A stretch of DNA of 20,789 nucleotides from Methanoregula sp. (GTDB lineage Archaea > Halobacteriota > Methanomicrobia > Methanomicrobiales > Methanospirillaceae). The translations under genes were made by a program, and so were the position numbers. Under the pieces are notes generated by a model, which worked only from the letters and a program-made list of their open reading frames with translations, made no database searches and was not told the DNA's origin. Positions 1-14,410 of this stretch are shown here, piece by piece. The stretch is taken from assembly GCA_003136075.1 (NCBI GenBank), contig PNBP01000197.1, positions 7,798 through 28,586 on the forward strand, read 5' to 3'. How positions within the stretch are numbered: position 1 is the first letter of the stretch; every line of letters begins with the position of its first letter.

Positions 1-149
1 TCCATTCCCTTGGGGCCGAGTGTGGTCCTGACTGCAGCTGCGACTGCCATTGCAGCGGTTATGTTCATACCCTGGGCGTCACGGCCGCGAGTACGGGTGC
101 TGCCTTCTTTGAGAATAAGGATCTGTTGTCCTCCAAGTTGTTGTGACAT
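1..149 (-). CDS. thsA: Thermosome subunit (group II chaperonin), N-terminal fragment
   Basis: Reading leftwards from an ATG at 149, the minus strand encodes about 49 residues beginning [19 protein letters not shown] and continuing with [22 protein letters not shown]. This is the conserved start of archaeal thermosome subunits, including the [10 protein letters not shown] nucleotide-binding region. The rest of the gene lies beyond the window. The thermosome is the cytosolic ATP-driven double-ring folding chaperonin, commonly heat-inducible. A Shine-Dalgarno GGTGA (complement of 155-159) sits 5 nt before the ATG, which supports this start. A strong TATA box lies at 189-198. The subunit letter is a guess because genomes carry several paralogues; the family is near certain. 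Confidence 0.93.
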
Positions 150-188: not shown

Positions 189-198
189 CTATATATAG
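189..198 (-). promoter_or_regulatory. TATA box of the thermosome gene
   Basis: CTATATATAG lies about 45 nt upstream of the thermosome ATG, which predicts a transcription start near 165-170 and a short leader holding the GGTGA ribosome site. The box is nearly symmetrical, so it could also fire rightwards into the mobile element that begins at 211; that is inference. The element inserted so close that only about a dozen original bases remain upstream of the box. Confidence 0.7.
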
Positions 199-202
199 GT
201 TA

Positions 203-210
203 TTGAAAAA
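203..210 (+). repeat. Left 8-bp target-site duplication
   Basis: TTGAAAAA lies directly outside the left terminal inverted repeat. The same 8 bases lie directly outside the right terminus at 8226-8233, in the same orientation. Eight bp is the duplication length known for the IS6 family. The match continues by chance or by target choice into GGTTC, because the right flank also reads GGTTC. Confidence 0.88.
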
Positions 211-227
211 GGTTCTGTTGCGTCTGC
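211..227 (+). repeat. Left terminal inverted repeat
   Basis: GGTTCTGTTGCGTCTGC is identical to the reverse complement of 8209-8225. After one mismatch the similarity continues for four more bases (GTTG), giving about 21 of 22 matching positions. Confidence 0.9.
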
Positions 228-260
228 AGTTGGGTGTTGCATTTGACTAGCCGCGTTGCA

Positions 261-271
261 TCGCGGTTGGT
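261..271 (+). repeat. Left subterminal repeat TCGCGGTTGGT
   Basis: TCGCGGTTGGT begins 51 nt inside the left end. The same 11 bases occur in inverted orientation at 8182-8192 near the right end, and the variant TCGCGGTTGAT occurs inverted at 8165-8175. Repeated motifs just inside the termini are typical of transposase binding sites; that role is inferred. Confidence 0.5.
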
Positions 272-296
272 CGCGCAAAATTCATTTTCACCACAC

Positions 297-1571
297 ATGG
301 TCATAGATATTAAAATCGCAAATAAATTATTGTCGAACAAGTACTGTGATTGTATGGTTCTAATTTCAAGAGTAAAGATTGATCCGAAAATTAAGAGTGA
401 TATTAAAAAAAGATTTCAAAAAGGATCTTTGCTTCTCTGTCCTAATGCAACAAGTGATAATTCCTTTCTAAGGAGGACAGAAAAAAAAGATAAAGATTTT
501 CTTCGTTTGCCTTATTCTAGAGATTCGGATAGGATACTCCATTCAAAAGCATATTCTAGGTATATAGATAAAACACAAGTTTTCTTTTTAGTTGATAATG
601 ATCATATAACTCATAGAGTCCTTCATGTTCAACTTGTCTCTAAAGTAGCACGGACTATCGGAAGAGCACTTGGATTAAATGAAGATCTAATTGAGGCAAT
701 ATCATTAGGTCACGATATTGGTCACGTTCCGTATGGGCATCTAGGGGAGAGAATATTATCCGATTTGTGCAAAGAATATAAAATTGGTGGATTTTTCCAC
801 AATGCTCAAGCAATCCAATTTCTAGATACAATTGAAAATTTGAATTTGACATTCCAAGTTTTAGATGGTATCCTATGTCATAACGGTGAAGTAAACGATT
901 GGACTGTTATTCCTGACAGAATTATTGACGCAGAATCGTTTGATTCAAAACTCAAAAAAATAAATGATGGTGAGAAGATTATTCCGAGCACATATGAAGG
1001 ATGTGTTGTGCGATTTGCAGACAACATAGCATATCTTGGTCGTGATTTGCAAGATGCGATTGAATTAAAATTGTTAACTCACGACAAAGAATTAAAAAAA
1101 TTCCCGAAATCATGCAAAAATCTATTCAAGTTGCACAATGAAAAGAATTTCAGTCACATTAATTGGTATATACTTGACACTCTGGTAAAAGATGTTATCA
1201 ATAGTAGTCATGGGACAGATAAAATCTGTTTTTCAAGATCTGTATCTGAAAGTGTCACCGAACTAAAAAAATTTAATACAGAAAATATCTACTATAATCC
1301 AAAATTAAAAGAAGAAAATTCTAAAATTGAGTTTATGTTTAAGACAATGTTTGAGACATTTTTAAAAGATTTTAAGGAGAATAAAACTACATCTCCGATC
1401 TTTACTGATATGTGTGATCTCAAATGGATCTCGCCTAATTATAAAAAAGAGGTTAAAAATAAACCGGAAATACTAGTTAGGGATTACATTGCTGGGATGA
1501 CTGATCGATATTTTGATAAAAAATTTTCAGACATTATGTCACTTTTACCAAAGAGGAGGGCGCATTTTTAA
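297..1571 (+). CDS. HD-domain deoxynucleoside triphosphate triphosphohydrolase (dGTPase-like)
   Basis: This 424-residue protein matches the dGTPase-type HD family, which hydrolyses dNTPs to deoxynucleoside and triphosphate. Visible hallmarks are the entry block LPYSRDSDRILHSKAYSR, the metal-binding HD set (THRVLH at about 105-110, GHDIGH at 138-143, ADNIAY with D242) and the following FFHNAQAIQFL, which corresponds to the family's GFEHNAQ. The frame is open back to a GTG at 234; I prefer the ATG at 297, and an ATG at 354 is also possible. No good ribosome site decides between them. The stop overlaps the next start by one base (TAATG), with a GAGGAGGG site at 1553-1560, so the two genes are translationally coupled. 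Family members act in dNTP homeostasis, and some bacterial ones in phage defence by dNTP depletion. Substrate specificity cannot be read from sequence. Confidence 0.88.
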   Translation: MVIDIKIANKLLSNKYCDCMVLISRVKIDPKIKSDIKKRFQKGSLLLCPNATSDNSFLRRTEKKDKDFLRLPYSRDSDRILHSKAYSRYIDKTQVFFLVDNDHITHRVLHVQLVSKVARTIGRALGLNEDLIEAISLGHDIGHVPYGHLGERILSDLCKEYKIGGFFHNAQAIQFLDTIENLNLTFQVLDGILCHNGEVNDWTVIPDRIIDAESFDSKLKKINDGEKIIPSTYEGCVVRFADNIAYLGRDLQDAIELKLLTHDKELKKFPKSCKNLFKLHNEKNFSHINWYILDTLVKDVINSSHGTDKICFSRSVSESVTELKKFNTENIYYNPKLKEENSKIEFMFKTMFETFLKDFKENKTTSPIFTDMCDLKWISPNYKKEVKNKPEILVRDYIAGMTDRYFDKKFSDIMSLLPKRRAHF

Positions 1572-1993
1572 TGAAAAAACGAGTTTATATTGCCGGACCA
1601 TTATTCTGCCAAGCAGAGTTAGATTTTAATCTGAAAGTAGATGCATTCCTGAACGAATTGGGATTTGAAACGTTTTTACCTCAAAGGGATGGGCATTTGC
1701 TGGCAAATTTGATTGTTGATAACGAACCTAAATACAATGCAATTAAAAAAATATTTGATCTTGATGTTGAAGAGATAAGAAAATCAGATATTCTTATTTT
1801 TATTATGGATGGCCGGGTTCCAGATGAGGGGGCATGTGTTGAACTCGGAATTGCTTTCTCTTTACACAAAGAGTGTATTGGTTTAAAAACGGATTCTCGA
1901 TATTTGATGGATAGTCTTGATAACCCACTTATCTTAGGGTGTATCAAAGGACAGGTCGCAAAATCAATTCCCGAACTAAAAAAATTTCTTTAA
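1571..1993 (+). CDS. Nucleoside 2-deoxyribosyltransferase family protein
   Basis: This 140-residue protein has the full layout of the family: the N-terminal KRVYIAGPLF, the central SDILIFIMDG and the active-site segment PDEGACVELGIAF, in which E91 corresponds to the nucleophilic glutamate, then KTDSR. Such enzymes break or swap the N-glycosidic bond of deoxynucleosides; relatives hydrolyse deoxynucleoside monophosphates. The ATG overlaps the stop of the upstream dNTPase, with a strong GGAGG ribosome site 10 nt before it, so the pair is one operon. Coupling suggests a pathway in which the first enzyme releases deoxynucleosides and this one acts on them. It ends 3 bp before the convergent transposase gene. 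Confidence 0.87.
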   Translation: MKKRVYIAGPLFCQAELDFNLKVDAFLNELGFETFLPQRDGHLLANLIVDNEPKYNAIKKIFDLDVEEIRKSDILIFIMDGRVPDEGACVELGIAFSLHKECIGLKTDSRYLMDSLDNPLILGCIKGQVAKSIPELKKFL

Positions 1994-1996
1994 AAA

Positions 1997-3184
1997 TTAT
2001 TTTACCGCCAACCCAATCATCGTTTCCCATCTGTTTCCTAGTAGGTTGATCGGGATATTTGCCATCTGTGCCGGGGTTAATCCCCCAATTCCCTGATGTG
2101 GTCGGATGTAGTTGTAATAGGTCTGCATCCCGATAGCGAACTCCTCCGCACCAATCGCGCTATCAAGGCTCCGCATTACCTTTGTCCTCTCCCTGAAAGT
2201 CCCGTTTAATCTTTCGAGGATGTTGTTGTTCGGCTTCGTCTCGAAATCCTTTAGTCGGATGTGGGGGTTCTGGATTCTTCCGAGTCCGTAGTATTCTGCC
2301 TTTATTGCCTCTTTGTATGCCTGTAAGCCATCGGTCACAATTGCGTCCGGTACGTTCATCGCGATCTCTTTTGCCTTGTGGAGTGGCTTTCGTGCATCCT
2401 TTACAAAGCGGGTTTCAGTAACTTGGCAGGCAAGGAGATATCGCGTCTTTGCATCCATGACGTTCCAGATCCACTGGTAATACTTTTTCTCACCCTCTTT
2501 CTTGATGAACACTGTCATTTCATCGGAGTGCCAGATGTTGCCGACATCGGCCTTGTATTTCTCGGAATACTTTGCGAGAAGTTTCAGGTACTTCTTAATC
2601 CAGCTCATGACGGTTGGCTGTGTGATTTCAACATTTTCAAACTGTTTCAAGTGATCAACAATCTTTCTCTGTGACACTCCTTTGAAGTAGAGGTCAAGGG
2701 TAAGGGTAATTGTTTTTGGGCTGTTCTTCATCTGACAGAATCCCTTATCGACAACAAATTTGTGATTGCAGTCGCGGCATGCAAACCTCTGAACAGTCCC
2801 AAAAGTGGTTTTACGAATGCCCCACTTTACAACTCTCTCGCTCTTGCAGGACGGGCAGGTAATCTTTGGTTCAGCCTCTTCAATTGCGGCAGGTGCGCTT
2901 TGTTCTTGAACATCACCTGCAATCTTTAACGAGAGTTGGACGGCATGAATATGTTTACAAGGCAGATTACGGGTCTGGTAATCCGGGCAGGAACACGTCC
3001 AGATTCCCGGTGATCTCATACGCTCTTCCCGGTTTTTCGGGAAGGTTCTAACGATGTGATAATACGCATCAATCGACTGTGATCGAACATCCCATTCATT
3101 CTCTCCGGTCTGAATGACCGTACCGGGCTGGCTGAGGATTGCCAGTCCTCTTAATTCTCTTGGATCGGTTAGTTGGCGGATCAT
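1997..3184 (-). CDS. IS6-like DDE transposase with N-terminal SWIM zinc finger
   Basis: This 395-residue transposase is taken from the ATG at 3184, which is preceded by GTGAG; a GTG at 3193 is the alternative. Order of parts: a SWIM zinc finger (CSC at 64-66, CKH at 76-78), a four-cysteine zinc ribbon (C110, C113, C136, C139), a helix-turn-helix region (about 165-200, GVSQRKIVDHL) and a DDE catalytic core (D221 in WHSDEMT, D285 in VTDGLQAY, E324 in NNILERLNGTFRER). The arginine 7 residues after the Glu and the IRPHQG segment fit the IS6 and related superfamily, as do the element's termini. The D-to-E spacing (38) is slightly longer than the 34 usual for IS6. Its base composition is more balanced than the AT-rich cargo around it. 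It is convergent with the deoxyribosyltransferase gene and divergent from the RHH gene. Confidence 0.88.
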   Translation of the reverse strand: MIRQLTDPRELRGLAILSQPGTVIQTGENEWDVRSQSIDAYYHIVRTFPKNREERMRSPGIWTCSCPDYQTRNLPCKHIHAVQLSLKIAGDVQEQSAPAAIEEAEPKITCPSCKSERVVKWGIRKTTFGTVQRFACRDCNHKFVVDKGFCQMKNSPKTITLTLDLYFKGVSQRKIVDHLKQFENVEITQPTVMSWIKKYLKLLAKYSEKYKADVGNIWHSDEMTVFIKKEGEKKYYQWIWNVMDAKTRYLLACQVTETRFVKDARKPLHKAKEIAMNVPDAIVTDGLQAYKEAIKAEYYGLGRIQNPHIRLKDFETKPNNNILERLNGTFRERTKVMRSLDSAIGAEEFAIGMQTYYNYIRPHQGIGGLTPAQMANIPINLLGNRWETMIGLAVK

Positions 3185-3206
3185 TTCTCTCACTTTATTA
3201 CAATCA

Positions 3207-3248
3207 TTACATTGGATGTATAACTATTTAATAGTTTACATTGGATGT
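3207..3248. promoter_or_regulatory. Candidate operator: 13-bp direct repeats flanking a palindrome at the transposase promoter
   Basis: TTACATTGGATGT occurs at 3207-3219 and again at 3236-3248. Between them is the inverted repeat AACTATT-T-AATAGTT (3222-3236). The minus-strand TATA-like sequence of the transposase gene falls inside this structure, 25 to 45 nt from its start. The divergent gene encodes an RHH-type DNA-binding protein, a class that binds short repeated operators. Binding by that protein is inferred. Confidence 0.45.
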
Positions 3249-3269
3249 TATTACAACATTCATTACAAT

Positions 3270-3280
3270 AACTATATTAG
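3270..3280 (+). promoter_or_regulatory. TATA box of the RHH gene
   Basis: AACTATATTAG is centred about 26 nt before the ATG at 3301. That is the spacing expected when transcription starts at the start codon, so it supports a leaderless transcript and the choice of 3301 over the ATG at 3310. Confidence 0.5.
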
Positions 3281-3300
3281 ATACCTGAAACATAATCAAT

Positions 3301-3483
3301 ATGATAAATATGGCAAGAGCAAGGGACGAAAATAAAACCTCGCGTAATATCGCATTGAAGCTGGAAACCTATGAGCGACTGGACAAATACAAAGCAAAAC
3401 TTATGGGAGAAAAAGGGACGACAAATGTTTCATTCGATGATGTAATCATTTCTTTGTTAGATTCTAAAAAAGGAATTACGTGA
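3301..3483 (+). CDS. Small RHH/VapB-type antitoxin-like DNA-binding protein
   Basis: This 60-residue protein has the pattern [32 protein letters not shown], which resembles archaeal VapB-like antitoxins: a short beta strand (residues 15-20) followed by two helices, as in ribbon-helix-helix regulators. No PIN-domain or other toxin gene follows it. The next gene is a DNA methyltransferase 55 bp downstream, and the divergent neighbour is the transposase. It may have been co-opted as a regulator of the transposase or of the cargo. The RHH fold is inferred from the residue pattern; function is unproven. Confidence 0.6.
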
Positions 3484-3504
3484 AAATAACGTCGTAAAAC
3501 CGGA

Positions 3505-3530
3505 AGTACTATATATAAGTACGTACTATA
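3505..3530 (+). promoter_or_regulatory. TATA box and overlapping palindromes before the first methyltransferase
   Basis: A TATATATAA box (3510-3518) is centred 25 nt before the ATG at 3539, which predicts a leaderless mRNA. It is bracketed by AGTACT (3505-3510) and the perfect 10-bp palindrome AGTACGTACT (3518-3527), and TACTATA occurs twice. The symmetry over the promoter suggests an operator; no binder is identified. Confidence 0.5.
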
Positions 3531-3538
3531 AATCTCCA

Positions 3539-4405
3539 ATGAAGAGGGGTTTAGAGAGAAACCAAATTTATTCAATAGATTGTCTAGATGGGCTGGACTT
3601 ACTAGACTCCAACTCTGTAGATGTGATTGTAACTTCGCCGCCGTACAACATCGGGATTCAATACAACATTTACGATGATAAAAAAACAAGACAAGAATAT
3701 CTAGATTGGTTAGAGAAAATTGCAATTTCGTGCAAGCGAGTGATGAAAAACGATGCATCGTTTTTCTTAAATATTGGAGGAACGCTTGCAGATCCTTGGA
3801 CACCATTTGACGTGGCACAAAGATTTAGGAGTCACTTTGTTTTACAGAACACGATTCACTGGATCAATTCAATTGCTATCTCAAAAGAGGATTTGGGCAT
3901 ATCTAACAAAATTAACAGGAATATTGCAGTTGGTCACTATAAACCAATTAACAGTAAGCGATTCCATCATGATTGTCATGAATTTATTTTTCACTTCACT
4001 AAAGGGGGCAATGTAGCGCTCGACAAATTATCGATAGGAGTTGAATATCAGGACAAAACCAATATCAATAGATGGAAAATTGCAACATCTGACAAGAGAG
4101 ATAGGGGAAATGTTTGGTTTATCCCTTATCCAACAATCAGGGAATCCAGAGAGCATCCGGCATCATTCCCTATAAAGTTGCCAGAGATGTGCATAAAGGA
4201 TCATGGCATTTCAAGAATAGAATTGGTTTTAGATCCTTTCATGGGATCGGGAAGTACGGCAATTGCATGTACTCGGTTAGGTGTAAATTTCATCGGGTTT
4301 GAAATTGATCCTTATTATTCAGATATTGCAAACAACTCAGTAAACCGGGAAATTGAAGCAATAAAATCAGATATTACAAAAATTTCAATCTCATCATATC
4401 TGTGA
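3539..4405 (+). CDS. Site-specific DNA methyltransferase (beta-class, N4-cytosine or N6-adenine), copy 1
   Basis: This 288-residue enzyme transfers a methyl group from S-adenosylmethionine to an exocyclic amino group in DNA. Catalytic motif IV (TSPPYN, residues 32-37) precedes the SAM-binding motif I (DPFMGSGST, 232-240), the permuted beta-class order. The region between them (about 80-200) should hold the target-recognition part. The [10 protein letters not shown] block after motif I is normal for the class. SPPY is often seen in N4-cytosine enzymes but does not settle the base modified. It starts the element's restriction-modification cluster. The gene appears leaderless. Confidence 0.87.
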
Positions 4406-4452
4406 TTTTAATATACAATAAATTTATTTTAATATCCATCAATAAGGCACAT

Positions 4453-4953
4453 ATGCCATTTGTCACTACTGCAAAACAGTTTCTCGAAGACCCTGGAGAA
4501 TTAGCCGAAGATAAAAAACTCGATGTAATGTATGATACTGTCGGATATCTGTTAGAGAATGCCATCGGGCTTAAAAATGCCAAATCTACAGACAAAATTA
4601 TCAAATTTTTAAATAAACGAGGCTATGCTATCAATCGCCATCAGTGGGAAATTGAAGTTTTGGGAAAGTTAAGGGATGAAGGAATATTTATTGCATCTCA
4701 TAAAAGTAAAGGAATGTACATTATTGACACAAGGGAAGAGGCCGAAAACTTTTATCTCCAATACCTCAAGAGAGTTGCCAAACAAAAATACCGGCTTGAA
4801 TTTTTAAAAGATTTAATTGATAACGGTCATTGGGAGTCAACGCCAATAACAAAAGGTAATTTTGATGTGGGTGTATCCGATGATACGATTCATGTCCCAC
4901 CCTCCCCTCCGCCACCACCTCCGCCTTCACCCAAAAAATCAAAGAGAAAATAA
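4453..4953 (+). CDS. Uncharacterised protein, possible winged helix, with proline/lysine tail
   Basis: This 166-residue protein of unknown function is taken from the ATG at 4453. A GTG at 4402, overlapping the methyltransferase stop as GTGA, would add 17 residues. A TATA-like TTTAATAT (4428-4435) about 22 nt upstream supports the ATG. The middle (KIIKFLNKRGYAINRHQW, LGKLRDEGIFIASHKSKGMYIID) reads like a winged helix-turn-helix with a beta wing. It is followed by a helical stretch and then an odd tail, PPSPPPPPPPSPKKSKRK: a short polyproline run followed by six basic residues among eight. It lies between the two methyltransferase genes, so a role in controlling or assisting the restriction-modification system is likely but inferred. 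Confidence 0.6.
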   Translation: MPFVTTAKQFLEDPGELAEDKKLDVMYDTVGYLLENAIGLKNAKSTDKIIKFLNKRGYAINRHQWEIEVLGKLRDEGIFIASHKSKGMYIIDTREEAENFYLQYLKRVAKQKYRLEFLKDLIDNGHWESTPITKGNFDVGVSDDTIHVPPSPPPPPPPSPKKSKRK

Positions 4954-4967
4954 ACAATAATAAAGAT

Positions 4968-4986
4968 TCTCTATTTTTTATTTTGT
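4968..4986 (+). terminator. Probable oligo-T terminator
   Basis: Just after the winged-helix-like gene the plus strand runs into T-rich sequence (TCTCTATTTTTTATTTTGTG), the form taken by intrinsic terminators in archaea. A second T-run (TTCTTTTTTG) lies near 5014-5023. Confidence 0.4.
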
Positions 4987-5038
4987 GTTTCCATTCGAAG
5001 TCTAACTATTGACTTCTTTTTTGCCAAAATTATAGACC

Positions 5039-5049
5039 TATAATTATAT
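5039..5049 (+). promoter_or_regulatory. TATA box of the AbrB-like gene
   Basis: TATAATTATAT lies about 30 nt before the ATG at 5075 with no clear ribosome site between them, so the AbrB/methyltransferase operon mRNA is probably leaderless or nearly so. Confidence 0.45.
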
Positions 5050-5074
5050 CTATTAATAGGACTAATATTCAACC

Positions 5075-5272
5075 ATGACGCTTAAACGAGATACAACATT
5101 AATTCGAGTAAACAAAAATTGTGATTCGTTAAGAACCACAATACCAAAACCAATAATGGATTTATTTGATTTAAAAGAAGGTAATAAAATCACATGGGTT
5201 TATGACCCAAAACATAAGTCAAGTATCAAAATTTCCTGTTCCAATGGAAATGGTAGGGGCGGGGGTGAATAA
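5075..5272 (+). CDS. AbrB/SpoVT-type (MazE-like) DNA-binding protein
   Basis: This 65-residue protein contains RVNKNCDSLRTTIPKPIMDLFDLKEGNKITWVYD, the swapped-hairpin AbrB pattern (LRTTIPK, LKEGNKI). The fold forms dimers that bind DNA, as in AbrB and the MazE antitoxin. The C-terminus is a short glycine-rich tail. It is followed after 3 bp by the second methyltransferase, whose ribosome site (GGGGGTGA) is inside this gene, so the two are co-translated. No toxin gene accompanies it. By position it may act as a control protein for the restriction-modification genes, which is inferred. Confidence 0.72.
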   Translation: MTLKRDTTLIRVNKNCDSLRTTIPKPIMDLFDLKEGNKITWVYDPKHKSSIKISCSNGNGRGGGE

Positions 5273-5275
5273 AAG

Positions 5276-6535
5276 ATGATATCAGAAGTGATACTCCCTC
5301 ATAACCAATATATCTCCGAATCAGATGTTCCAACAGTAGAGAGTTCTGACGATAATAAAAAATTTCCAAAATCTGAATATAAAAAATTGATAGTTAAAAT
5401 TGACAGTCCCTTAAATCTGGCAGAAAGCGTACTACTAACCAAAATACACAAGAAATTTTCAAAAAACGGCTTCCAGATGGATATACAGGAATTTGAGATT
5501 GTTTTGTATCTTCATTCGATTGATCTCGAAGCTTTCAAAACATATATCCACGGTCTGCTAAGTACTACCAGCCCCGAATTAGTCGATAAAACGGTTTTTC
5601 TAAATATTATTGAAAAAATTTCGAGGATTAAAAGTTACGGTATCAAAGGCGGAAAAAGATTTTATGTAACGTATAACGATGAACGAAAAGTTGAAAATCG
5701 ACAATCCAAAGTCACTAAAAGAGGTCTGTACTATTACGCTCAAAAAAATAATTTCTCAAAAGTAAATACCCCCCTTCCAGAAAAATATGAAAATCTTGTA
5801 ATTTGTAGAGATAGCGAAGAGGTCTTAAGACAATTACCAGACAACTGCATCGATCTGATTATTACGTCTCCACCTTACAATTTTGGATTGGGATATGATA
5901 CATCAAAAGACGGAGTAAATTGGGAGAGGTATTTTCAGAAATTATTTGAAATCTTCGACGAGTGCATCCGCGTTCTGAAATATGGGGGCAGGATAATTGT
6001 TAATATCCAGCCATTATTTTCAGATTACATCCCTAGTCACCACATTATTTCAAATCATTTCATGGAGAAAAAAATGATCTGGAAGGGTGAGATCCTCTGG
6101 GAGAAAAATAATTATAACTGTAAATATTGTGCATGGGGGAGCTGGAAAAGTCCGAGTTCCCCCTACCTAAAATATACGTGGGAATTTTTGGAGATATTTT
6201 CAAAGGGAGATTTGAAAAAGGAGGGGCTTCCTGAAAATATCGACATCAACGAAGACGAATTTAAAAAATGGGTTGTTGCAAAGTGGTCGATTGCACCAGA
6301 AAGAAAAATGGTTCAGTATGATCACCCCGCGATGTTCCCAGAAGTTTTGGTAGAAAGAGCCTTGAAACTTTTTAGTTTTCAAGGAGATATAATACTAGAT
6401 CCATTTAACGGAGTGGGGACAACATGTGCAGTAGCAAAACGATTGGGTCGAAAATATATTGGAATTGATAAGTCTCAAAAATATTGTAGCATCGCCAAAA
6501 GAAGGGTTAAGGAAATTTTACCCGGAACAAATTAA
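5276..6535 (+). CDS. Site-specific DNA methyltransferase (beta-class), copy 2, with N-terminal extension
   Basis: This 419-residue enzyme has catalytic motif IV TSPPYN at 197-202 and SAM-binding motif I DPFNGVGTT at 375-383, followed by KYIGIDKSQKYCSIA. The motif order is the same as in the other methyltransferase of this cluster. The first 170 residues precede the catalytic domain, are lysine-rich and are not part of a standard methyltransferase; I do not recognise them. Two different methyltransferases serving one nuclease are known where the recognition site is asymmetric and each strand needs its own enzyme. The gene is convergent with the nuclease gene, the stop codons overlapping by about 4 bp (6532-6535). 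Confidence 0.87.
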   Translation: MISEVILPHNQYISESDVPTVESSDDNKKFPKSEYKKLIVKIDSPLNLAESVLLTKIHKKFSKNGFQMDIQEFEIVLYLHSIDLEAFKTYIHGLLSTTSPELVDKTVFLNIIEKISRIKSYGIKGGKRFYVTYNDERKVENRQSKVTKRGLYYYAQKNNFSKVNTPLPEKYENLVICRDSEEVLRQLPDNCIDLIITSPPYNFGLGYDTSKDGVNWERYFQKLFEIFDECIRVLKYGGRIIVNIQPLFSDYIPSHHIISNHFMEKKMIWKGEILWEKNNYNCKYCAWGSWKSPSSPYLKYTWEFLEIFSKGDLKKEGLPENIDINEDEFKKWVVAKWSIAPERKMVQYDHPAMFPEVLVERALKLFSFQGDIILDPFNGVGTTCAVAKRLGRKYIGIDKSQKYCSIAKRRVKEILPGTN

Positions 6536-7326
6536 TCGGGTAAAATTCCTCCCAATTGGATTCTTATTGCTTCACGAGACAACTTTTCCAAAGCGAGTTT
6601 TACTTCAGTAAAAAAAGAAAACACAGCCTCATTGCTCACAGGGTTTGTTGTTTTTCCGCGAATGATAAAAATTTGATCTAAGGGCGTCCTACCTTTTGTT
6701 GGTATTTCGTCAACATCAATTTCATTCCTTTCAGACACACAATACACTTTTACATTCGGGGAACCTTGTTTCATTTTTTGTGCGGTAAATTGTGCTTCGC
6801 TTAACATCGTTTTGTCGATGTAAGTTTTACATTCTATTGCAATAACTGGGATGATTATAGTGTAATTTTCATCACCGATATTAACATCAAATTCCTTACC
6901 GATACAAAAATCAATATCTTTAGTTTTTATTTTTGCGTTCCCCCCTCTATCAAGCGTTATTCCAGCAAAAACCCCCTTATTGAAAAAATCAAGATTCAAT
7001 CTTCCAATTTCAGGGATGTCCTTTAAAAGAAATCCACAAAATTCCTCTAATACGGTCGGTCTAAATTTCGATTGTGATGTTATTTTTACACCGTTACCTG
7101 CCATATTACCAATAAAAGAATCGACGCGAGTATAATATTCTGAAAGCAATCGTGTTTTTTCATTTATATCTTCGATTTGGATACCAGTAATTGCCAATTG
7201 AGCTTGGTAATAATATAATCGATAATGTTGCTCTTTAAAATCAGAAAACTCGTCTCCAATTTCCTTATAATTTGAGTTTATTTTTCCATCAATGTTACTT
7301 TCGTGATAAAAATAACTCCCAACCAT
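6532..7326 (-). CDS. Type II restriction endonuclease, Bpu10I-like
   Basis: This 264-residue protein has a PD-(D/E)XK nuclease signature: E94 in a helix (TVLEEF), D137/D139 in KTKDIDFCIG, then IAIECKTY with E165 and K167. The sequence around VIAIECKTYIDKTM reminds me of the Bpu10I family, which cuts an asymmetric 7-bp site as a heterodimer; I could not run the search. It lies convergent to methyltransferase 2 and 5 bp downstream of a small partner gene. Two methyltransferases plus one or two nuclease subunits fits an asymmetric-site system. The nuclease call is firm; the Bpu10I label is moderate. Confidence 0.75.
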   Translation of the reverse strand: MVGSYFYHESNIDGKINSNYKEIGDEFSDFKEQHYRLYYYQAQLAITGIQIEDINEKTRLLSEYYTRVDSFIGNMAGNGVKITSQSKFRPTVLEEFCGFLLKDIPEIGRLNLDFFNKGVFAGITLDRGGNAKIKTKDIDFCIGKEFDVNIGDENYTIIIPVIAIECKTYIDKTMLSEAQFTAQKMKQGSPNVKVYCVSERNEIDVDEIPTKGRTPLDQIFIIRGKTTNPVSNEAVFSFFTEVKLALEKLSREAIRIQLGGILPD

Positions 7327-7331
7327 ATGTT

Positions 7332-7694
7332 TTAGAATTTGTTCTTACACATATCATCTTTGCGCGGTTTGTTAAACATCATCGTGATTTCTTTTTGTAA
7401 ATCGATCCAAAGTTTATCTTCTTTTTTTGCTTTTGATATGGATTCAAATATTGCGGTTGTAACCTGCATAGCCCTATCGTAGAAAAGACTGTGCCAGGAA
7501 ATATCTTCATCGGAATCTGGATTTGGATTAGACCCTGTTTCGAGGCAGATTTGTAATATTCTAGCTCCGCTTGGTCTAACAATGAACTCTATCCAATCGT
7601 CTTTCCCTGTGGCATCCATCTGTTGAAAAGATATTGAAAATACATTATCGAGGTTTATCCAGTCATCATCTTGGCAATTTTTTATCCAGACCAT
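7332..7694 (-). CDS. Small uncharacterised protein upstream of the restriction endonuclease
   Basis: This 120-residue acidic protein begins MVWIKNCQDDDWINLDNVF and shows no motif I can assign; I see no PD-(D/E)XK triad. It is the first gene of a two-gene minus-strand operon with the endonuclease, separated by 5 bp. Position suggests a nuclease-associated subunit, specificity helper or control protein. A TATA box at 7717-7723 places transcription start at its ATG. Confidence 0.6.
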   Translation of the reverse strand: MVWIKNCQDDDWINLDNVFSISFQQMDATGKDDWIEFIVRPSGARILQICLETGSNPNPDSDEDISWHSLFYDRAMQVTTAIFESISKAKKEDKLWIDLQKEITMMFNKPRKDDMCKNKF

Positions 7695-7716
7695 AATATA
7701 AATTAAAATTTGTAAT

Positions 7717-7723
7717 TTTATAA
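7717..7723 (-). promoter_or_regulatory. TATA box of the endonuclease operon
   Basis: The minus strand reads TTATAAAA, centred about 26 nt before the ATG at 7694, with no ribosome site in between. This implies a leaderless transcript for the small protein and the endonuclease. Confidence 0.5.
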
Positions 7724-7776
7724 CAATCTATTGGTCTTTCGATCAATTACGCACTCATTTTATTTCGTTTTATAGG

Positions 7777-7811
7777 ATAATCACCGCGCGCCCATTATTT
7801 TTAGTGATTAT
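7777..7811. repeat. Inverted repeat ATAATCAC...GTGATTAT between divergent genes
   Basis: ATAATCAC (7777-7784) and GTGATTAT (7804-7811) are perfect inverted 8-mers separated by 19 bp that include CGCGCG. They sit in the divergent intergenic region between the endonuclease operon and the zinc-ribbon gene. This could be an operator; the binder is unknown. Confidence 0.35.
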
Positions 7812-7850
7812 ACAGTGTTAATTAATGAAAATACGTGAGAATAGAGGTTT

Positions 7851-8141
7851 TTGGAAAATGGTCGACGAAAGTCATATAAAGGGGCAATTTCTGACCTTTT
7901 ATTAGGCGAGTCCGATCCGGATCGCTTGGAGGTGAAGATCACGCCGAAATTTATTAAGAAAGCAACCGGAATTTACAAACCCCCAAAATGCCCAAAATGC
8001 GACACTATTTTGTTGGTCGAGAAATTTGATGAGGCTGATGGTAAAGATATGAGCGAGGGAGAATTAGCTGAATATCTAGCTGGCACTCACGGAACCATGC
8101 ATTGTCCCAAATGTGATTATTCAGAAGATTTCGAAGACTAA
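7851..8141 (+). CDS. Small zinc-ribbon protein of unknown function
   Basis: This 96-residue protein carries two CPKC knuckles (C47/C50 and C85/C88), enough for one zinc ribbon, joined by an acidic linker. The N-terminus is basic. The only in-frame start after a stop at 7842-7844 is the TTG at 7851, so the start is uncertain; TTAATTAA at 7818-7825 could be its TATA element. It is the last gene before the right end of the mobile element. Zinc ribbons are common in archaeal transcription and nucleic-acid factors; I cannot assign a role. Confidence 0.6.
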   Translation: MENGRRKSYKGAISDLLLGESDPDRLEVKITPKFIKKATGIYKPPKCPKCDTILLVEKFDEADGKDMSEGELAEYLAGTHGTMHCPKCDYSEDFED

Positions 8142-8164
8142 TCAATAATTTTCATTCACAATTA

Positions 8165-8192
8165 ATCAACCGCGACTTATCACCAACCGCGA
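8165..8192 (-). repeat. Right subterminal repeats
   Basis: Read on the minus strand, TCGCGGTTGGT (8182-8192) and TCGCGGTTGAT (8165-8175) repeat the motif found inside the left end at 261-271. GGTTGATCAACC (8197-8208), a perfect palindrome, lies between them and the terminal repeat. All four belong to the right-end architecture of the element. Confidence 0.5.
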
Positions 8193-8208
8193 GTCCGGTT
8201 GATCAACC

Positions 8209-8225
8209 GCAGACGCAACAGAACC
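8209..8225 (-). repeat. Right terminal inverted repeat
   Basis: GCAGACGCAACAGAACC is the exact reverse complement of 211-227. It is followed directly by the TTGAAAAA duplication. Confidence 0.9.
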
Positions 8226-8233
8226 TTGAAAAA
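8226..8233 (+). repeat. Right 8-bp target-site duplication
   Basis: TTGAAAAA is identical to 203-210. Three bases further on, at 8237-8239, is the stop codon of the HTH regulator, so insertion spared that gene. Confidence 0.88.
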
Positions 8234-8236
8234 GGT

Positions 8237-9163
8237 TCACTCGCCGATCATATCGAGGAGCTCAAAACCGGTCTCGATCCGGTGGAGGCGGTCTTCGCCA
8301 ATCACCAGTGTTTTGCCGATCTTTTTCTCTTTATGGTAATCCGTGATAATACACATCGCATGCTTTTTTGCAATCTGGGAAAGATTGCCGATCAATGCAG
8401 CACGCTTTACGACTTTCTGCGCCGGGCCATAGCCTGTCAGGATTGTTTGTTTGTCAAACGTGAGAAGTGCCTGGAACGGGGCTCCCCGGAGCGTCTGCAA
8501 CCGCACGCCAATCTGCTCTAAAAATTCTATGGGTACGTTCAGAACCTTCCGGTCTTTTGGCCCGTCGTGCCGGGTTTCATCCGGACGCTCGTGCCGTATC
8601 AGGTTAATCGATTCAACAACACCGGTATCGAAATATTCCTCAATTTTTATCGCCACATCGAGCGTTGTGCCCATCCCACCCTCGTACTTGCTGATGGTAC
8701 GGCGCGAAACGCCCAGCACCTGTCCGAGATCGCCAAGCGACATGTTACGCTGTTCGCGGAGTTCCCGAAGAGTGTCGCCATTGATATTGACATAGAGCCC
8801 TCCAGGCGACGCATAGACAAGGGGTGGAACCTTCTCCACGAAGAAGTCATAGAGTGTTGCGGGACTGATTGCATAGATGCCATACCGGATATAGACTGCC
8901 CCCCGCTCAAGCTCCGCATCACGGGCACGTTCACCAACGATCAACGGCACCCCACCCAAATGGCGCGCGATCACGTCGAGATCAAATGCCGCGTCCTCGC
9001 TCACGGAATCGATATGGGCGACGACTTTGATGACAAGAAGCGTCCCGTTGTTCCGTGCAATGAGGTCAAAACTTCGCGGGCGTATGCTAAAGCGCTCGGA
9101 AACCTCAAAGCCTGCGGTGATCATGACACTGATGACCATCTGGAGCTGGCGATCTTGGGACAT
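8237..9163 (-). CDS. Archaeal HTH-type transcriptional regulator (XRE-like)
   Basis: This 308-residue protein is taken from the ATG at 9163 (MSQDRQLQM); an upstream in-frame start would run into tiaS. The N-terminal 110 residues (FDLIARNNGTLLVIKVVAH) resemble a nuclease-like fold without a complete active site. A helix-turn-helix of Cro/XRE type occupies about 131-180 (LRELREQRNMSLGDLGQVLGV, SRRTISKYEGG), followed by an alpha/beta C-terminal domain. This is the layout of the conserved archaeal putative HTH regulator family found in most methanogens. Its target is unknown. A TATA sequence at 9190-9204 is 25-35 nt upstream. The gene ends just before the mobile element; before the insertion it would have been followed by the thermosome gene in the same direction. 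Confidence 0.85.
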   Translation of the reverse strand: MSQDRQLQMVISVMITAGFEVSERFSIRPRSFDLIARNNGTLLVIKVVAHIDSVSEDAAFDLDVIARHLGGVPLIVGERARDAELERGAVYIRYGIYAISPATLYDFFVEKVPPLVYASPGGLYVNINGDTLRELREQRNMSLGDLGQVLGVSRRTISKYEGGMGTTLDVAIKIEEYFDTGVVESINLIRHERPDETRHDGPKDRKVLNVPIEFLEQIGVRLQTLRGAPFQALLTFDKQTILTGYGPAQKVVKRAALIGNLSQIAKKHAMCIITDYHKEKKIGKTLVIGEDRLHRIETGFELLDMIGE

Positions 9164-9189
9164 GCAGTTACAAATGGATAGAGCGTGCC

Positions 9190-9204
9190 CATATATTAAT
9201 ATAG
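9190..9204 (-). promoter_or_regulatory. TATA box of the HTH regulator
   Basis: CATATATTAATATAG is symmetrical and lies about 34 nt before the regulator ATG, the right distance for a short-leader transcript. It is too close to the tiaS ATG at 9207 to be that gene's TATA box. Confidence 0.5.
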
Positions 9205-9206
9205 AT

Positions 9207-10430
9207 ATGCTAATCGGTATCGATGACACGGATTCCCCACAGGGGATGTGCACGACCTACCTTGGGGCAGTTCTCGCCCGGCGTTTAATCCGGGAACATA
9301 TGCGGATGCGTGTGGCCCGGCTCGTCCGGCTCAACCCGAACGTGACGTGGAAGACCCGGGGGAACGCAGCGATCATGCTGGACGTAGAGGGAGATCCCGG
9401 CCGTGCGTTTACGGTCGCGTGCGAAACCGTGGAGGAACTAGCTGATTTCTCGTGCGAAAATACGAACCCGGGGGTTGTCGTGGCAGATGCCCGGCCGGAC
9501 CCGGCGTTTTACCGGAAAGCGGTCATGGATTTCTGCACTACAGAAGAAGCGGTCGGCATCCTTGATGCTGCCGGGGCCCGGTACCATGGCTGGAAGAACC
9601 GTCGCGGGTTGATCGGGGCAACAGCTGCGATTGCAAGCGAACTTGTGGACAGGACTTCGGAGATTCTCGTGTACCGGCAACCAGAGCGGTTTGGTATGCC
9701 CCGCGAGGTAAATCGAGAGAACCTGTTTGCCGCTGAAGAGGCCACGTTCCCGCACACGTGGGACACCGTGGACATGGCAAACGATGTTGTTGTCTGCGTA
9801 CCACACACGCCGGACCCGGTGCTGTTTGGCATCCGGGGCGAGAGCCCGTCATGGGTGCTGATGGCCCGGTCAATGATCGAATCGGAGCCCCCCGGCATCT
9901 CCCAGATCTGGGTGACAAACCAGGGAACGGATGCCCACCTGCTTGCCGGGAAGATCGGGGAACTGCGTGAGGGGCTCTCGTACCATGTGAAAGGGACGGT
10001 TGCCGGTTTGCCGGTAACCGGGACAGGGGGCCATGTCGCTTTTGCGATCCGCGATAGCGAACAAACAGTGCAGTGTATGGCATACGAGCCCACGAAAAAT
10101 TTCCGGTTTATCGTGCGTGAGCTTGTGCCGGGCGATGAGGTGATTGCCGTTGGCAGTTACAAGAAAGGCAGCGTCAACTTAGAGAAGATGAAGGTGGTGT
10201 CGCTTGCAAAGCCCGTTATATCCCGCCCACCGATGTGTACTGCATGCAACAAGCGGATGACCAGTGACGGGAAAGGCAAAGGCTGGAAGTGCAAAAAGTG
10301 CGGGGCTCGTGCAACGGAGCCGGAGGTTCTGGAGATCTCCCGCACTCTCAAAACCGGATGGTATGAGGTACCTCCAACCGCACGAAGACACTTGGCAAAG
10401 CCATTGTGCCGGGGCGAGCCGGCATTTTAA
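9207..10430 (+). CDS. tiaS: tRNA(Ile2) 2-agmatinylcytidine synthetase TiaS
   Basis: This 407-residue protein starts MLIGIDDTDSPQGMCTTYLG, the hallmark of TiaS. The enzyme uses ATP and agmatine to modify C34 of the CAU-anticodon isoleucine tRNA so that it reads AUA and not AUG; it is essential and archaea-specific. The catalytic kinase-like region is N-terminal, an OB-fold RNA-binding domain follows (about 260-335, VKGTVAGLP, GDEVIAVGSYKKG), then a four-cysteine zinc ribbon (C344, C347, C362, C365) that helps hold tRNA. The length is normal for the family. The ATG at 9207 matches the conserved N-terminus; the long open frame upstream is not coding. Confidence 0.95.
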   Translation: MLIGIDDTDSPQGMCTTYLGAVLARRLIREHMRMRVARLVRLNPNVTWKTRGNAAIMLDVEGDPGRAFTVACETVEELADFSCENTNPGVVVADARPDPAFYRKAVMDFCTTEEAVGILDAAGARYHGWKNRRGLIGATAAIASELVDRTSEILVYRQPERFGMPREVNRENLFAAEEATFPHTWDTVDMANDVVVCVPHTPDPVLFGIRGESPSWVLMARSMIESEPPGISQIWVTNQGTDAHLLAGKIGELREGLSYHVKGTVAGLPVTGTGGHVAFAIRDSEQTVQCMAYEPTKNFRFIVRELVPGDEVIAVGSYKKGSVNLEKMKVVSLAKPVISRPPMCTACNKRMTSDGKGKGWKCKKCGARATEPEVLEISRTLKTGWYEVPPTARRHLAKPLCRGEPAF

Positions 10431-11308: not shown

Positions 11309-14300
11309 TCAGATACTAACCGATTCAACGATCGCAATCTCTTCCGCTGTCAATCCATACAGATCATACACCAACGCATCGATCCGGACATCCGTCGCAT
11401 CGATCTCCTGCTGTACCAACCGCCGCTCCTGGTCGGTCTTCGCCTGCGGGAGGTAGCGGTTCAATTCCAATGTCTGGGTGACGAGCGCAACCATCTTGTC
11501 GTGCCGGGTCTTGTCCGCAAGCTTGTCAAAGTCGGGGACGTAGATGGGGATCTTGCCAAGGTACTGGAAAATGAGCTGATAACCACCCTGAATTTTTGTA
11601 CAATAATTTGAGATTAAGAACCAACCTAATTTTGAATTCAATAAACCGAGCAAGAAGAAATCCTTCTTTGGAATGATAAATATTGCACCATTTGGATAAT
11701 GAATTCCAGAGTCAAAAGTAAATGCAGTTTTCATCTGGAATTTTACATAAATTAATTTTGGTTTTTCAAACTCTGGATAAAAATCAATAACATCCTGAAT
11801 TTCATACCATTTGTAAGGGCCGGGTTTTCTTCCTTCCCAAGCATTTCCATTCCAGTCATCAGGCTTTGGAGTTAACTGGGGCTTAAATTGTTTAAGATAT
11901 TTTTCAATCGCAGGATAATTATTAATATCAATCCCCCGTCGTGTAAATATTAAAAATCTCTTATCTGGAAGCGGTTGATATCGTTTGATGTCACGACCGA
12001 CTAAATATGGTTTAATAATTTCAATACTACGTGGATCTTCTTCAATAAGTTTTTTCTTAATATCCCCACCAATCACAAATGCCTTATCTAATCCTGTTAT
12101 AATTCCACGGTAAATCCCACCCATCACGTAATTTTCCAGCGGTGTCCCGGCACTCTGCAGCTTCTTCAGCAGCAGTTCCGTCCGCTTGTCGCCGAGCGTC
12201 CAGCCGCCGTCAGTAAGCGTAGCCTGCTCAATCAGGTGCCGGTGCTGCTGCACGTAATCCGCAAGGTTTGGGAAGTCGAGCATCTCCACCTTTGAGATGC
12301 AGATCTCCTTTGCCGGTTTTGCATTCCTGACCCGGATGATGCACGGGTACGTCGTCGCGGTTTTGAAGACCGGCAGATCGCCGAAGTCCACGATCTCGTC
12401 GATCTGTTTTGTCAGGAGGAACTTGCGGAGCGGCTTGCCGTAGTTCGCCCGCATCCATTTATTTGCCACGATGTACGAGAAGATCCCACCGGGGCGCAAC
12501 AGCGAGATGCCCTTCTCGATGAAGTACGCGTACAGGTCGGCAGTGCCCTGGTAAACCGCGTAGCGGGACTGGTAATACTCCTTCTGGTCTTTGAGCGATT
12601 CCTGCCGGACGTACGGGGGATTGCCGATCACCGCATCGAATCCTCCCGCCTTCATCACCAGCGGGAACCCGGCCTGCCAGTCAAACGCATTGATCCGCTT
12701 TTGCTCCGCCATGTTAAACGGGTGCGCCTGTTTGAGATCGAAATAATCCGGCGCAACAAGCGAGTTCCCGCACCGGATGTTGTGATGCAGGGAGGGCAGC
12801 GCCCGTTCAGCAAAAAGTTTCAGCTGCTTTGAGACATTCTCCTCGCTCTCCTCTTCAAGAACTTTTAAGAGAAGCGAGAGTTTCGTCACCTCGACTGCCT
12901 GCGTGTCGATGTCCACACCGTAGAGGTTGTTTACAAGAATGCGTTTGCGCTCCGCAGTCATTAGCCGCCAGTCGCTCCGCATCCTTGAGGAGTGATCGGT
13001 CCCGGCCTTGTAGATCGGCAGTTCGTACGCGCCCTCTTTCTTTGCCTCCTTCCCCAAAACAACTGGATCCGGCAGGAGCGCCCGGACTTCCGGCGAGGTT
13101 GCCGGATGATCGGCAAGCACCGGCACCAGATGCCCGATGTACCAATCGCGGTGCCAGTCAAGCAGGAACTGGTACGTTCCCAGCAGGAACGAACCGGAGC
13201 CGCACGCAGGATCGACAACGGTGAGTTTTGCCACCTCGCGGGGAGTTTTTCCCTTCACCAGTTCGCCCACCGTCTTTTTCACGATATAGTCCACGATATA
13301 TGCAGGCGTATAGAAGACTCCTCCGGCCTTGCGTACCTCCGGCTTGTCCTCCACATCCGCCCGGTGCGCTGCGGTGAGCCTGATCACTTTCCCGAGGAAC
13401 TGCTCATACACCTGCCCGAGGATCTCGGCAGGGATCACCGAGAACTCGTACGGGCTCTCCGGGTAGTAGAGCCGGTTAATGATCGTCTTTAAGACCGTAT
13501 CGTCAATAACGAGCGTGGGCGTGAGCGTATCCGGCATCTCATCGCGTCCGGCCTCACCCGCGAAATGGAAAAGCCCGGAGTTATACTTGTCATCCGCGAG
13601 ACGAAACAGGTCACAAATGCGGGCATAGACACCCGGATCATGGGACAGGGCATGCAGGGTCTCGTAGTGCTCAATTCCCCGGTCCTCGCAGATTCGCAGG
13701 AAAATAATACGATCGATAATCAGCTGGACTGCGGTGTTCACCTCTTCCTGTGAGAGCCCGATATTCCGCAGGGCGATATTGCGGGCAAGCAGCAGCCGCC
13801 AGTTCTCGATATCCTCCAGGAACTTCTGATCGACACCGGCGGTCCCGTGCTTCTCGCCATTCGTTGCTACGTACTTGTCGTACGAGCCTTTCTGGATGCC
13901 CTCCGGGGAAAAGACCGAGGCGATCCGGTCCCATCGTTTTTCATATTCGGTATAGGGAAAATAGGCAATCCGGGCTGTTGCCGCCGTATCATCGCTACGA
14001 AGGGGAACATTGCAGTCATAGACCGCGAACTCCTCGAAATTCGTCAGGATTGAAAGTTTTAAGCCGGCATTCCATGCGTACCGGCGCAACTGGAGAGCGG
14101 CATCCAGATCGTCTTTGAGGGAAACCGCTGGTTTCTTCGCTTCGCAGATGAACTTGCGGGCCCCTCCCACCCGAAACGAGTAATCGATGAATTTTGTCTG
14201 GCCCCGTATGCGGATCGGGTCTTCGTGGGCGACTTCCTTGTACGCCTCCGACCAGCCCTTGTTATTGTCCACGTCCCACCCAAGCGCACGGAAGAACGGA

Positions 14301-14410
14301 GCAAGAAATTCCCGCCGCAGTTCAGTCTCATTCTTCTGCCCCTTGTGATAGACCGGGCGATTGAACTCGTAGCGTTGTATAAGATCGATAATCGGTTGCG
14401 GTGCCGGCAT
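11309..14410 (-). CDS. Type IIG restriction-modification enzyme (nuclease, methyltransferase and specificity in one chain)
   Basis: This 1033-residue fusion protein has an N-terminal PD-(D/E)XK nuclease with D76 (FIDYSFR) and E90/K92 (FICEAKKP), a helical linker (about 150-350), and a gamma-type N6-adenine methyltransferase with motif I DPACGSGSF (400-408) and catalytic NPPY (597-600, GNPPYVRQE). The C-terminal target-recognition region (about 740-1000) has the TaqI/Eco57I-like pattern (GIITGLDKAFVI, IKPYLVGRDIKRY). Such enzymes cut unmodified DNA a fixed distance from the site and methylate their own genome. No separate HsdS or HsdR genes are present. The stretch 11585-12130, coding residues about 760-941 of the recognition region, is sharply AT-rich while the rest of the gene is GC-rich, which suggests the specificity module was exchanged. 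The frame is intact. Confidence 0.9.
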   Translation of the reverse strand: MPAPQPIIDLIQRYEFNRPVYHKGQKNETELRREFLAPFFRALGWDVDNNKGWSEAYKEVAHEDPIRIRGQTKFIDYSFRVGGARKFICEAKKPAVSLKDDLDAALQLRRYAWNAGLKLSILTNFEEFAVYDCNVPLRSDDTAATARIAYFPYTEYEKRWDRIASVFSPEGIQKGSYDKYVATNGEKHGTAGVDQKFLEDIENWRLLLARNIALRNIGLSQEEVNTAVQLIIDRIIFLRICEDRGIEHYETLHALSHDPGVYARICDLFRLADDKYNSGLFHFAGEAGRDEMPDTLTPTLVIDDTVLKTIINRLYYPESPYEFSVIPAEILGQVYEQFLGKVIRLTAAHRADVEDKPEVRKAGGVFYTPAYIVDYIVKKTVGELVKGKTPREVAKLTVVDPACGSGSFLLGTYQFLLDWHRDWYIGHLVPVLADHPATSPEVRALLPDPVVLGKEAKKEGAYELPIYKAGTDHSSRMRSDWRLMTAERKRILVNNLYGVDIDTQAVEVTKLSLLLKVLEEESEENVSKQLKLFAERALPSLHHNIRCGNSLVAPDYFDLKQAHPFNMAEQKRINAFDWQAGFPLVMKAGGFDAVIGNPPYVRQESLKDQKEYYQSRYAVYQGTADLYAYFIEKGISLLRPGGIFSYIVANKWMRANYGKPLRKFLLTKQIDEIVDFGDLPVFKTATTYPCIIRVRNAKPAKEICISKVEMLDFPNLADYVQQHRHLIEQATLTDGGWTLGDKRTELLLKKLQSAGTPLENYVMGGIYRGIITGLDKAFVIGGDIKKKLIEEDPRSIEIIKPYLVGRDIKRYQPLPDKRFLIFTRRGIDINNYPAIEKYLKQFKPQLTPKPDDWNGNAWEGRKPGPYKWYEIQDVIDFYPEFEKPKLIYVKFQMKTAFTFDSGIHYPNGAIFIIPKKDFFLLGLLNSKLGWFLISNYCTKIQGGYQLIFQYLGKIPIYVPDFDKLADKTRHDKMVALVTQTLELNRYLPQAKTDQERRLVQQEIDATDVRIDALVYDLYGLTAEEIAIVESVSI

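Follow-up and report, generated by a model that had tools for sequence, protein, structure and literature searches.

A passenger-bearing, IS6-like transposon at an archaeal thermosome promoter and its family of elements spaced from TATA boxes

The stretch analysed, here called the window, comprises 20,789 nt of a Methanoregula sp. contig (PNBP01000197.1, assembly GCA_003136075.1). It carries a mobile element of 8,015 bp (211–8225), a single unit between inverted ends, with a thermosome gene on its left and a helix-turn-helix (HTH) regulator gene (ending at 8237) on its right (Table 1). The ends are perfect inverted copies of a 17-mer of IS6 type, GGTTCTGTTGCGTCTGC (211–227 on the plus strand and 8209–8225 on the minus strand), and an inverted-repeat search of the window found arms of 24 nt with 96% identity. 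No further copies of the 17-mer with three or fewer mismatches were found elsewhere in the window (0.06 expected by chance). The unit is bordered by exact copies of an 8-bp target repeat, TTGAAAAA. Only one transposase was identified, and a search for inner ends within 211–8225 found none, leaving one pair of ends with matching repeats around the transposase. The GC content per kb was 0.32–0.47 in the unit, which is AT-rich, and 0.51–0.58 in 10 of the 11 kb after position 9,000 (0.435 in the remaining kb). An earlier reading made from the letters alone (the sequence-only reading) had proposed an IS6-like single transposition unit with its own ends. This was confirmed: the segment is real and is one mobile unit, and a second transposase with its own ends, which that reading had named as a competing source of mobility, was not found inside it.

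The host is Methanoregula-like, of the order Methanomicrobiales. Loci and genomes of our survey carry L and G numbers. The empty site that the sequence-only reading had suggested looking for was found in a relative (L189), where GAATGAATC TTTTTCAA TAACCTATATATAGAACC was uninterrupted; the window reads GAGTGAACC TTTTTCAA, unit, TTTTTCAA TAACCTATATATAGAACC. L189 is the site of the window without the element. The regulator was present in 93 of the 100 relatives searched, and the thermosome followed it directly in 21 of the 30 best loci (66–103 bp) and in 15 of 16 further genomes read (54–78 bp). Relatives read at the thermosome locus had either the empty site or a different element end, and a few had other DNA there (L183/L208 and L215); at least eight genomes have an element end at this site. 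None of the loci read had the genes of the unit in this place but no termini, an arrangement that would have spoken against mobility.

Three details of this site were recorded separately. The GGTTC after the 8226–8233 repeat was considered as a relic of another element and dropped; L189 has GATTC, and the likeness is probably a one-base coincidence. Extra DNA between regulator and thermosome amounted to 428 bp in L208 (G019) and 1.6 kb in L215 (G052), with no recognised end. In L039 (7230–7260, G048), the element interrupts the regulator gene at its final codons, and the reading frame now seems to terminate at a stop codon within the inverted repeat of the element (GDS becomes GDSGSDKL).

The transposase contained SWIM and DDE_Tnp_IS240 domains (Pfam), and PF13610 scored over its cut-off. 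The zinc ribbon reached 24.4 bits as InsA type (Pfam cut-off 26.1) and 34.1 bits with NF050000 (cut-off 28). The best model was the NCBIfam IS6 model, with 107 bits against a cut-off of 125. Eight of ten relatives scanned were also below this cut-off, which was reached by L126 (133.6) and L170 (125). The predicted fold (best of five models, pLDDT 72) had an ordinary DDE core with matches to ISCth4, TnsB and integrase. We file the element as IS6-like, in a clade near the IS6 family, and not as a proven IS6 member.

Matches to the transposase were found in 12 of 232 genomes of the class, with ten near-full-length copies (seven-row alignment scan), and in 25 of 392 genomes of a phylum sample; a protein search returned 1,401 homologues. 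In total, 17 units of 807 to 8,762 bp were delimited. As identical 8-bp repeats were required for selection, their exactness in 17 of 17 units is by construction. L120 was recognised by scanning its promoter stretch for ends with a TATA box at the spacing described below, and L200 by inspecting the thermosome locus. Several loci were read from one end only (L095–L097, L122, L136, L171 and L209) or from the regulator side only (L044 and L206). No end pair with identical 8-bp repeats was found in L122–L124, L127–L133, L135–L137 and the Thaumarchaeota loci L232–L237, which stand outside the 17; L134 and the first reading of L120 gave chance-like end pairs only. The repeats of L207 differed at two positions.

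A TATA box (up to one mismatch) was located exactly 5 nt beyond the target repeat in 12 of the 17 units. Of the exact TATA heptamers at offsets up to 44, ten were at +5 and two at any other position. Without L120 and L200, the box was at +5 in 10 of 15 units (eight exact). In the first set, 7 of 10 units had it at +5, compared with 177 of 25,200 intergenic heptamers. With this background of 0.7% per heptamer and strand, the binomial probability of 7 of 10 is ~1e-11; such figures overstate the certainty, as related species and recurring promoters are included and the three TATA heptamers were chosen after the first sites had been seen. L126 was scored on its left side (TTTGTAAAA), and its right side also reads TATTTATA; its promoter side is ambiguous because of TATA-like sequence on both sides.

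Eighteen TATA-side flanks were aligned (side chosen by TATA; three single ends and three flanks from the thermosome locus included). They followed the form repeat-N-A-A-N-N-TTTATATA, with A at +3 in 17 of 18 and the TTTATATA profile at +6 to +13. The repeat itself was nearly uninformative. The AA in the spacer presumably fits the archaeal recognition element (BRE) of transcription factor B (TFB). A fixed spacing to a core promoter element is present, and insertion 5 nt upstream of TATA is, judged from these alignments, a common property of the family; target choice appears non-random.

The genes behind the occupied promoters were identified by Pfam on ten proteins (Cdc48, Hsp20, HtrA-like, ArsR-type regulator and thermosome) and by tblastn. 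The thermosome was found in the window, L039, L094, L200, L207 and L209, and by the regulator side in L044 and L206. Cdc48 was found in L040 and L045, Hsp20 in L041, L042 and L043, and an HtrA-like gene in L048. An operon of HSR1-like regulator, Cdc48 and Hsp20 follows in L125 and L136, an ArsR-type regulator with a CTAAC operator in L095, L096 and L097 and, by eye, GroES-GroEL in L122. Transposase pieces also lay at the thermosome (L046) and beside Hsp20 (L100). The transposases of the two Cdc48 insertions were 36% identical.

Overall, 11 of the 17 paired units were at a heat-shock gene (10 of 15 without L120 and L200). Within the host order, this was the case for 10 of 11 and, without L200, for 9 of 10, these having been found without looking at neighbours. 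We place no weight on a binomial for these neighbours that assumed 20 heat-shock genes among 2,500. As a control, 30 loci with PF01609 transposases were taken from eight of the 12 genomes with matches to the present transposase; none had a heat-shock neighbour (tblastn, 1e-3). These control loci covered ~3.3 kb each, with flanks shorter than those read for long units. The idea that the heat-shock signal came from the cargo was rejected, since the genes counted are beyond the target repeats and sites without an element also have the thermosome. The promoters hit in the host order are, by these gene assignments, nearly all heat-shock promoters.

We consider it probable that the window holds a complete passenger-bearing transposon near IS6 whose family takes TATA-spaced targets, in this order heat-shock promoters, by a docking on TATA-binding protein (TBP) and TFB. 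Ends, repeats, empty site, family, TATA spacing and heat-shock neighbours were observed; from them, we infer the docking. The single DDE transposase would act on the two outer GGTTCTG... ends, and everything between them would move together with duplication of 8 bp of target. The target repeat would end 5 nt before TATA, and the core promoter would stay intact because the insertion is upstream of both TATA and the presumed TFB recognition element. The transposase, perhaps via its SWIM/zinc-ribbon N-terminus, would dock on promoter DNA carrying TBP and TFB. Heat-shock promoters, repressor-held or heat-induced, may be the richest supply of such complexes. According to the available text of PMC9133787, the archaeal repressor Phr blocks RNA polymerase at promoters to which TBP/TFB are bound, which would make TBP/TFB-loaded heat-shock promoters plausible docking sites. 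The more far-reaching proposal, that the archaeal preinitiation complex (TBP-TFB on BRE/TATA) is the landing mark and that heat-shock promoters held by TBP/TFB link the mobility of defence genes to stress, we regard as evenly balanced.

Each insertion would regenerate repeat-N5-TATA and leave the same 8 bp open to a second hit. If the distance from TATA sets the target, a second insertion would have to fall on these 8 bp, which would account for stacked elements with a shared repeat. In L061, the repeat CTCAACTG occurs before a 5,855-bp unit, after it and again after a second 1.1-kb element with other ends; in L040 and L041, a further end abuts across the target repeat.

Several observations weigh against this reading. 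Five of the 17 units depart from the spacing, with more than one mismatch at +5 (L041, L048, L061, L121 and L169). Outside the host order, only one of six paired units was at a heat-shock gene (L125, the operon), and in the Thaumarchaeota genome G541, one of six transposases was near Hsp20 (L232). No heat-shock gene was found for L061, L120, L121, L126, L169, L170, L171 and L011. L120 lies before a tRNA and an rpoH-like open reading frame (ORF), L126 before an HTH-like ORF (by eye) and, within the order, L061 upstream of an ATP-synthase-like operon (by eye); the neighbour protein of L061 had no Pfam match among the ten scanned. For L011, the second transposase of G000, the ends lacked matching repeats, and the 7 kb read contained no heat-shock gene. 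Likewise, no heat-shock gene was found at other ends without repeats (L008–L010, L016/L047, L062, L063, L098 and L099). Finally, there was no transcription factor among the 50 listed matches to the transposase model.

The best-surviving rival, in our view unlikely, is that the transposase reads BRE/TATA DNA itself, without TBP or TFB, heat-shock promoters simply being good copies. The motif in the 18 aligned flanks is strong, and its strict pattern, NAANNTTTATATA, is rare, with 12, 9 and 4 copies in G048, G098 and G011. In G048, 2 of the 12 are occupied (thermosome and Cdc48), and the ten others are free of the element. However, 20 of the 23 other strict sites were read, and none had an element end at the right spacing; a good BRE/TATA is therefore not sufficient. 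The genes downstream of these 20 sites matched no heat-shock query, and several occupied sites are imperfect (L041, L048, L061 and L096). At the strict site L240, the neighbour looks like GrpE by eye, a protein outside the heat-shock queries.

Rather improbable is a guiding role for an HSR1-type heat-shock repressor bound downstream of TATA, with the TATA spacing following from a fixed distance between operator and TATA. HSR1 autoregulates via CTAAC-N5-GTTAG (available text of PMC9133787), from which we took the operator motif. Allowing up to two mismatches, we located it in 10 of the 14 occupied promoters, 17–18 nt after the start of TATA, counted at the best position within 57; the match was exact in L048 and L125. 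With the 20 strict element-free sites as a control at fixed spacing, none had the operator at 16–19 nt. Both counts also speak for the TBP/TFB reading. Yet the motif is missing from the thermosome promoters, which are hit repeatedly, and this is a point against the TBP/TFB reading as well. The TATA spacing also holds for L120 and L170, where no heat-shock gene was found.

We also think it decidedly improbable that elements insert at random into AT-rich intergenic DNA and survive only where a gene with downstream repressor operators keeps its core promoter. The TATA box is kept in the counted units, and with HSR1-type operators downstream of TATA, the DNA upstream may be dispensable. Such survival would, however, allow many distances, in conflict with the concentration of exact heptamers at +5, and it leaves the rare use of other genes' upstream regions unexplained, as well as the 30 control transposase loci away from heat-shock genes. 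Very improbable is one ancient element at the thermosome site, later overwritten by exchange of cargo and ends, so that its occupants are not independent insertions. It would account for the number of genomes with an end there, but four fully read units differ in their repeats (TTGAAAAA, GAGACTCA, TTGAAAAT and TTTTTAGA, the last on the other strand), ends and cargo differ between occupants, and the thermosome is directly adjacent to the regulator in most relatives. A compound structure, with two IS6 copies reduced to their ends around a resident island, is how IS6 elements usually mobilise genes (available text of PMC7986276), but it is scarcely credible given one transposase, no inner ends found in the unit, the uninterrupted site in L189 and many similar units with unrelated cargo.

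Table 1. Features of the window
Feature	Position	Strand	Basis or remark
Thermosome (group II chaperonin) gene, 5' part, host	1..149	-	tblastn 91.8% to L039 thermosome, itself Cpn60_TCP1
Thermosome TATA box, 5 nt from target repeat	190..197	-	198-202 is spacer with BRE-like AA
Left target repeat, 8 bp	203..210	.	single copy in empty site L189
Left terminal inverted repeat	211..232	+	repeat search and 17-mer matches
HD-domain dGTPase-like phosphohydrolase, passenger	234..1571	+	Pfam HD, HD_assoc; TIGR01353 over cut-off; PADLOC dGTPase
Nucleoside 2-deoxyribosyltransferase-like, passenger	1571..1993	+	PF05014
IS6-like transposase (SWIM, zinc ribbon, DDE)	1997..3193	-	domain matches, predicted fold
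Small divergent ORF beside transposase, 60 aa, ribbon-helix-helix (RHH)-like by eye	3301..3483	+	small ORFs at same place in relatives
N6/N4 DNA methyltransferase 1, passenger	3539..4405	+	PF01555; PADLOC MTase_II
183-aa passenger protein, no family	4402..4953	+	Pfam, NCBIfam-type and PADLOC scans
N6/N4 DNA methyltransferase 2, passenger	5276..6535	+	PF01555; PADLOC MTase_II
Bpu10I-family restriction endonuclease, passenger	6532..7326	-	PF09549, 57.9 bits vs cut-off 25; 149 homologues
120-aa passenger protein, no family	7332..7694	-	Pfam, NCBIfam-type and PADLOC scans
96-aa passenger protein with CxxC motifs, no family	7851..8141	+	ORF list, Pfam scan
Right terminal inverted repeat	8204..8225	-	repeat search and 17-mer matches
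Right target repeat, 8 bp	8226..8233	.	exact copy of 203-210
Host HTH regulator, stop codon abuts insertion site	8237..9253	-	thermosome usually next gene in relatives

Regarding cargo, the restriction-modification genes that the sequence-only reading had placed inside the unit are there: the Bpu10I-family endonuclease (PF09549) adjoins the two DNA methyltransferases (PF01555). The Bpu10I restriction system consists of two different endonuclease subunits. Of the nine ORFs of the unit that were scanned, one matched PF09549, and no second subunit was found. Six pairs of Bpu10I-like and transposase homologues share the size of their longest contig (9656, 7624, 6357, 18248, 4789 and 8974), an indication, though no proof, that the two are linked in those pairs. 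The dGTPase-like and deoxyribosyltransferase-like genes (234–1993) share one base and are possibly a nucleotide-depleting pair. Outside the transposon, ~3 kb beyond its right end, a 1,033-aa type IIG restriction-methylation enzyme (PADLOC; 11309–14410, minus strand) lies in DNA of mostly host-like GC content.

The sequence-only reading had also proposed a search for elements with such ends but other cargo, and these were found. By Pfam, the passengers were a type IIG enzyme with DUF1828 and DUF6978 proteins (L040), an MvaI/BcnI endonuclease with methyltransferase (L042), an N6 methyltransferase with specificity subunit and Fic (L043), a methyltransferase adjoining a 310-aa unknown protein (L039), an HNH protein (L041), a ClpP-like protease (L045), a GNAT protein (L094), a methyltransferase (L126) and, in the half-read L206, Schlafen AlbA_2. 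The scanned passengers of L061 and L120 had no Pfam match. DNA methyltransferases occurred in at least 6 of the 17 units (window, L039, L040, L042, L043 and L126), the scan having left out L048, L121, L125, L169, L170 and L200. The passengers differ between elements, with toxin-antitoxin-like, nuclease-like or unknown genes in some units. Small divergent ORFs stood beside the transposase in 13 of 13 loci inspected, mostly AbrB-, RHH- or Zn-ribbon-like by eye. The window element, which that reading had described as an unusual mobile defence island, is mobile and carries defence-type cargo; it is not a one-off but a member of a passenger-bearing family. The unit and its restriction-modification genes were read correctly, and the promoter-targeted family was missed.

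Some further relatives are mentioned here. The 1.1-kb element of L061 (14614–15729), beside the larger unit, has the same type of ends, no transposase and most of a 351-aa ORF without a Pfam family; a 303-aa ORF in L170 is similar to it by eye. L169, L170 and L171 are on IMG/VR viral contigs, and viruses or plasmids may carry relatives of the element. In L170 and L171, a TATA-like box lies 5 nt from the repeat or presumed repeat. Genome G541 (Thaumarchaeota, L232–L237) has six related transposases, with L236 beside HsdM-/HsdS-like ORFs by eye. In the genome of the window itself, L008 and L009 are short end pairs resembling miniature inverted-repeat transposable elements and L010 is a lone end; they have no matching repeats and were not counted.

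Genome sequences suffice to reveal the targeting pattern, which is shared by transposases with identities down to 36%. It yields a clear prediction, namely that the transposase docks either on TBP/TFB or on a heat-shock repressor. For restriction systems, it may be a route of spread with a safe landing place that spares an important chaperone promoter and a possible link to stress. For annotation, such ends with an 8-bp repeat beside heat-shock genes can serve as a rule for finding more elements and unknown cargo.

Compared with known systems, the family resembles clade i of IS6/IS26 (zinc finger and extra N-terminal domain). The DDE domain is best matched by the IS6 model, and the family ends, short and near-perfect, are of the same type as what we take to be the IS6 consensus form, GGNNCTGTTGC. 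The available text of the IS6 review gives GGTTCTGTTGC-type ends, 8-bp repeats and an N-terminal zinc-finger extension for this clade, features that the present elements share, as well as lengths of 0.7–1.76 kb for the IS6 family and one named passenger-bearing member, ISDsp3; its main text does not contain the words heat, TATA, AT-rich or preference (PMC7986276). IS6 elements of that length are filled by the transposase gene, whereas the present family spans 0.8–8.8 kb with variable passengers, an N-terminal SWIM domain and TATA-positioned targets. The 8,015 bp of the window unit are far beyond the IS6 norm, as the sequence-only reading had said. ISDsp3 is likewise an IS6-type element with a passenger, but a single hypothetical one and in one copy (same source), whereas the cargo of the present family is varied and includes restriction-modification genes. 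Drosophila P elements accumulate in proximal heat-shock gene promoters (available text of PMC2793543). They share the insertion at heat-shock promoters and differ in being eukaryotic with an unrelated transposase. We know of no fixed TATA distance for them. Promoter- or TBP-directed transposition in archaea was not found in the literature searched and, to our knowledge, fixed-distance, core-promoter-directed or factor-directed transposon integration is known only from eukaryotes. Yeast Ty3 integrates at a fixed distance via promoter-bound initiation factors (TFIIIB). It is a retrotransposon at RNA polymerase III genes, and the docking factor in the present family is a presumed one. If true, the family would be an archaeal counterpart of eukaryotic factor-directed integration.

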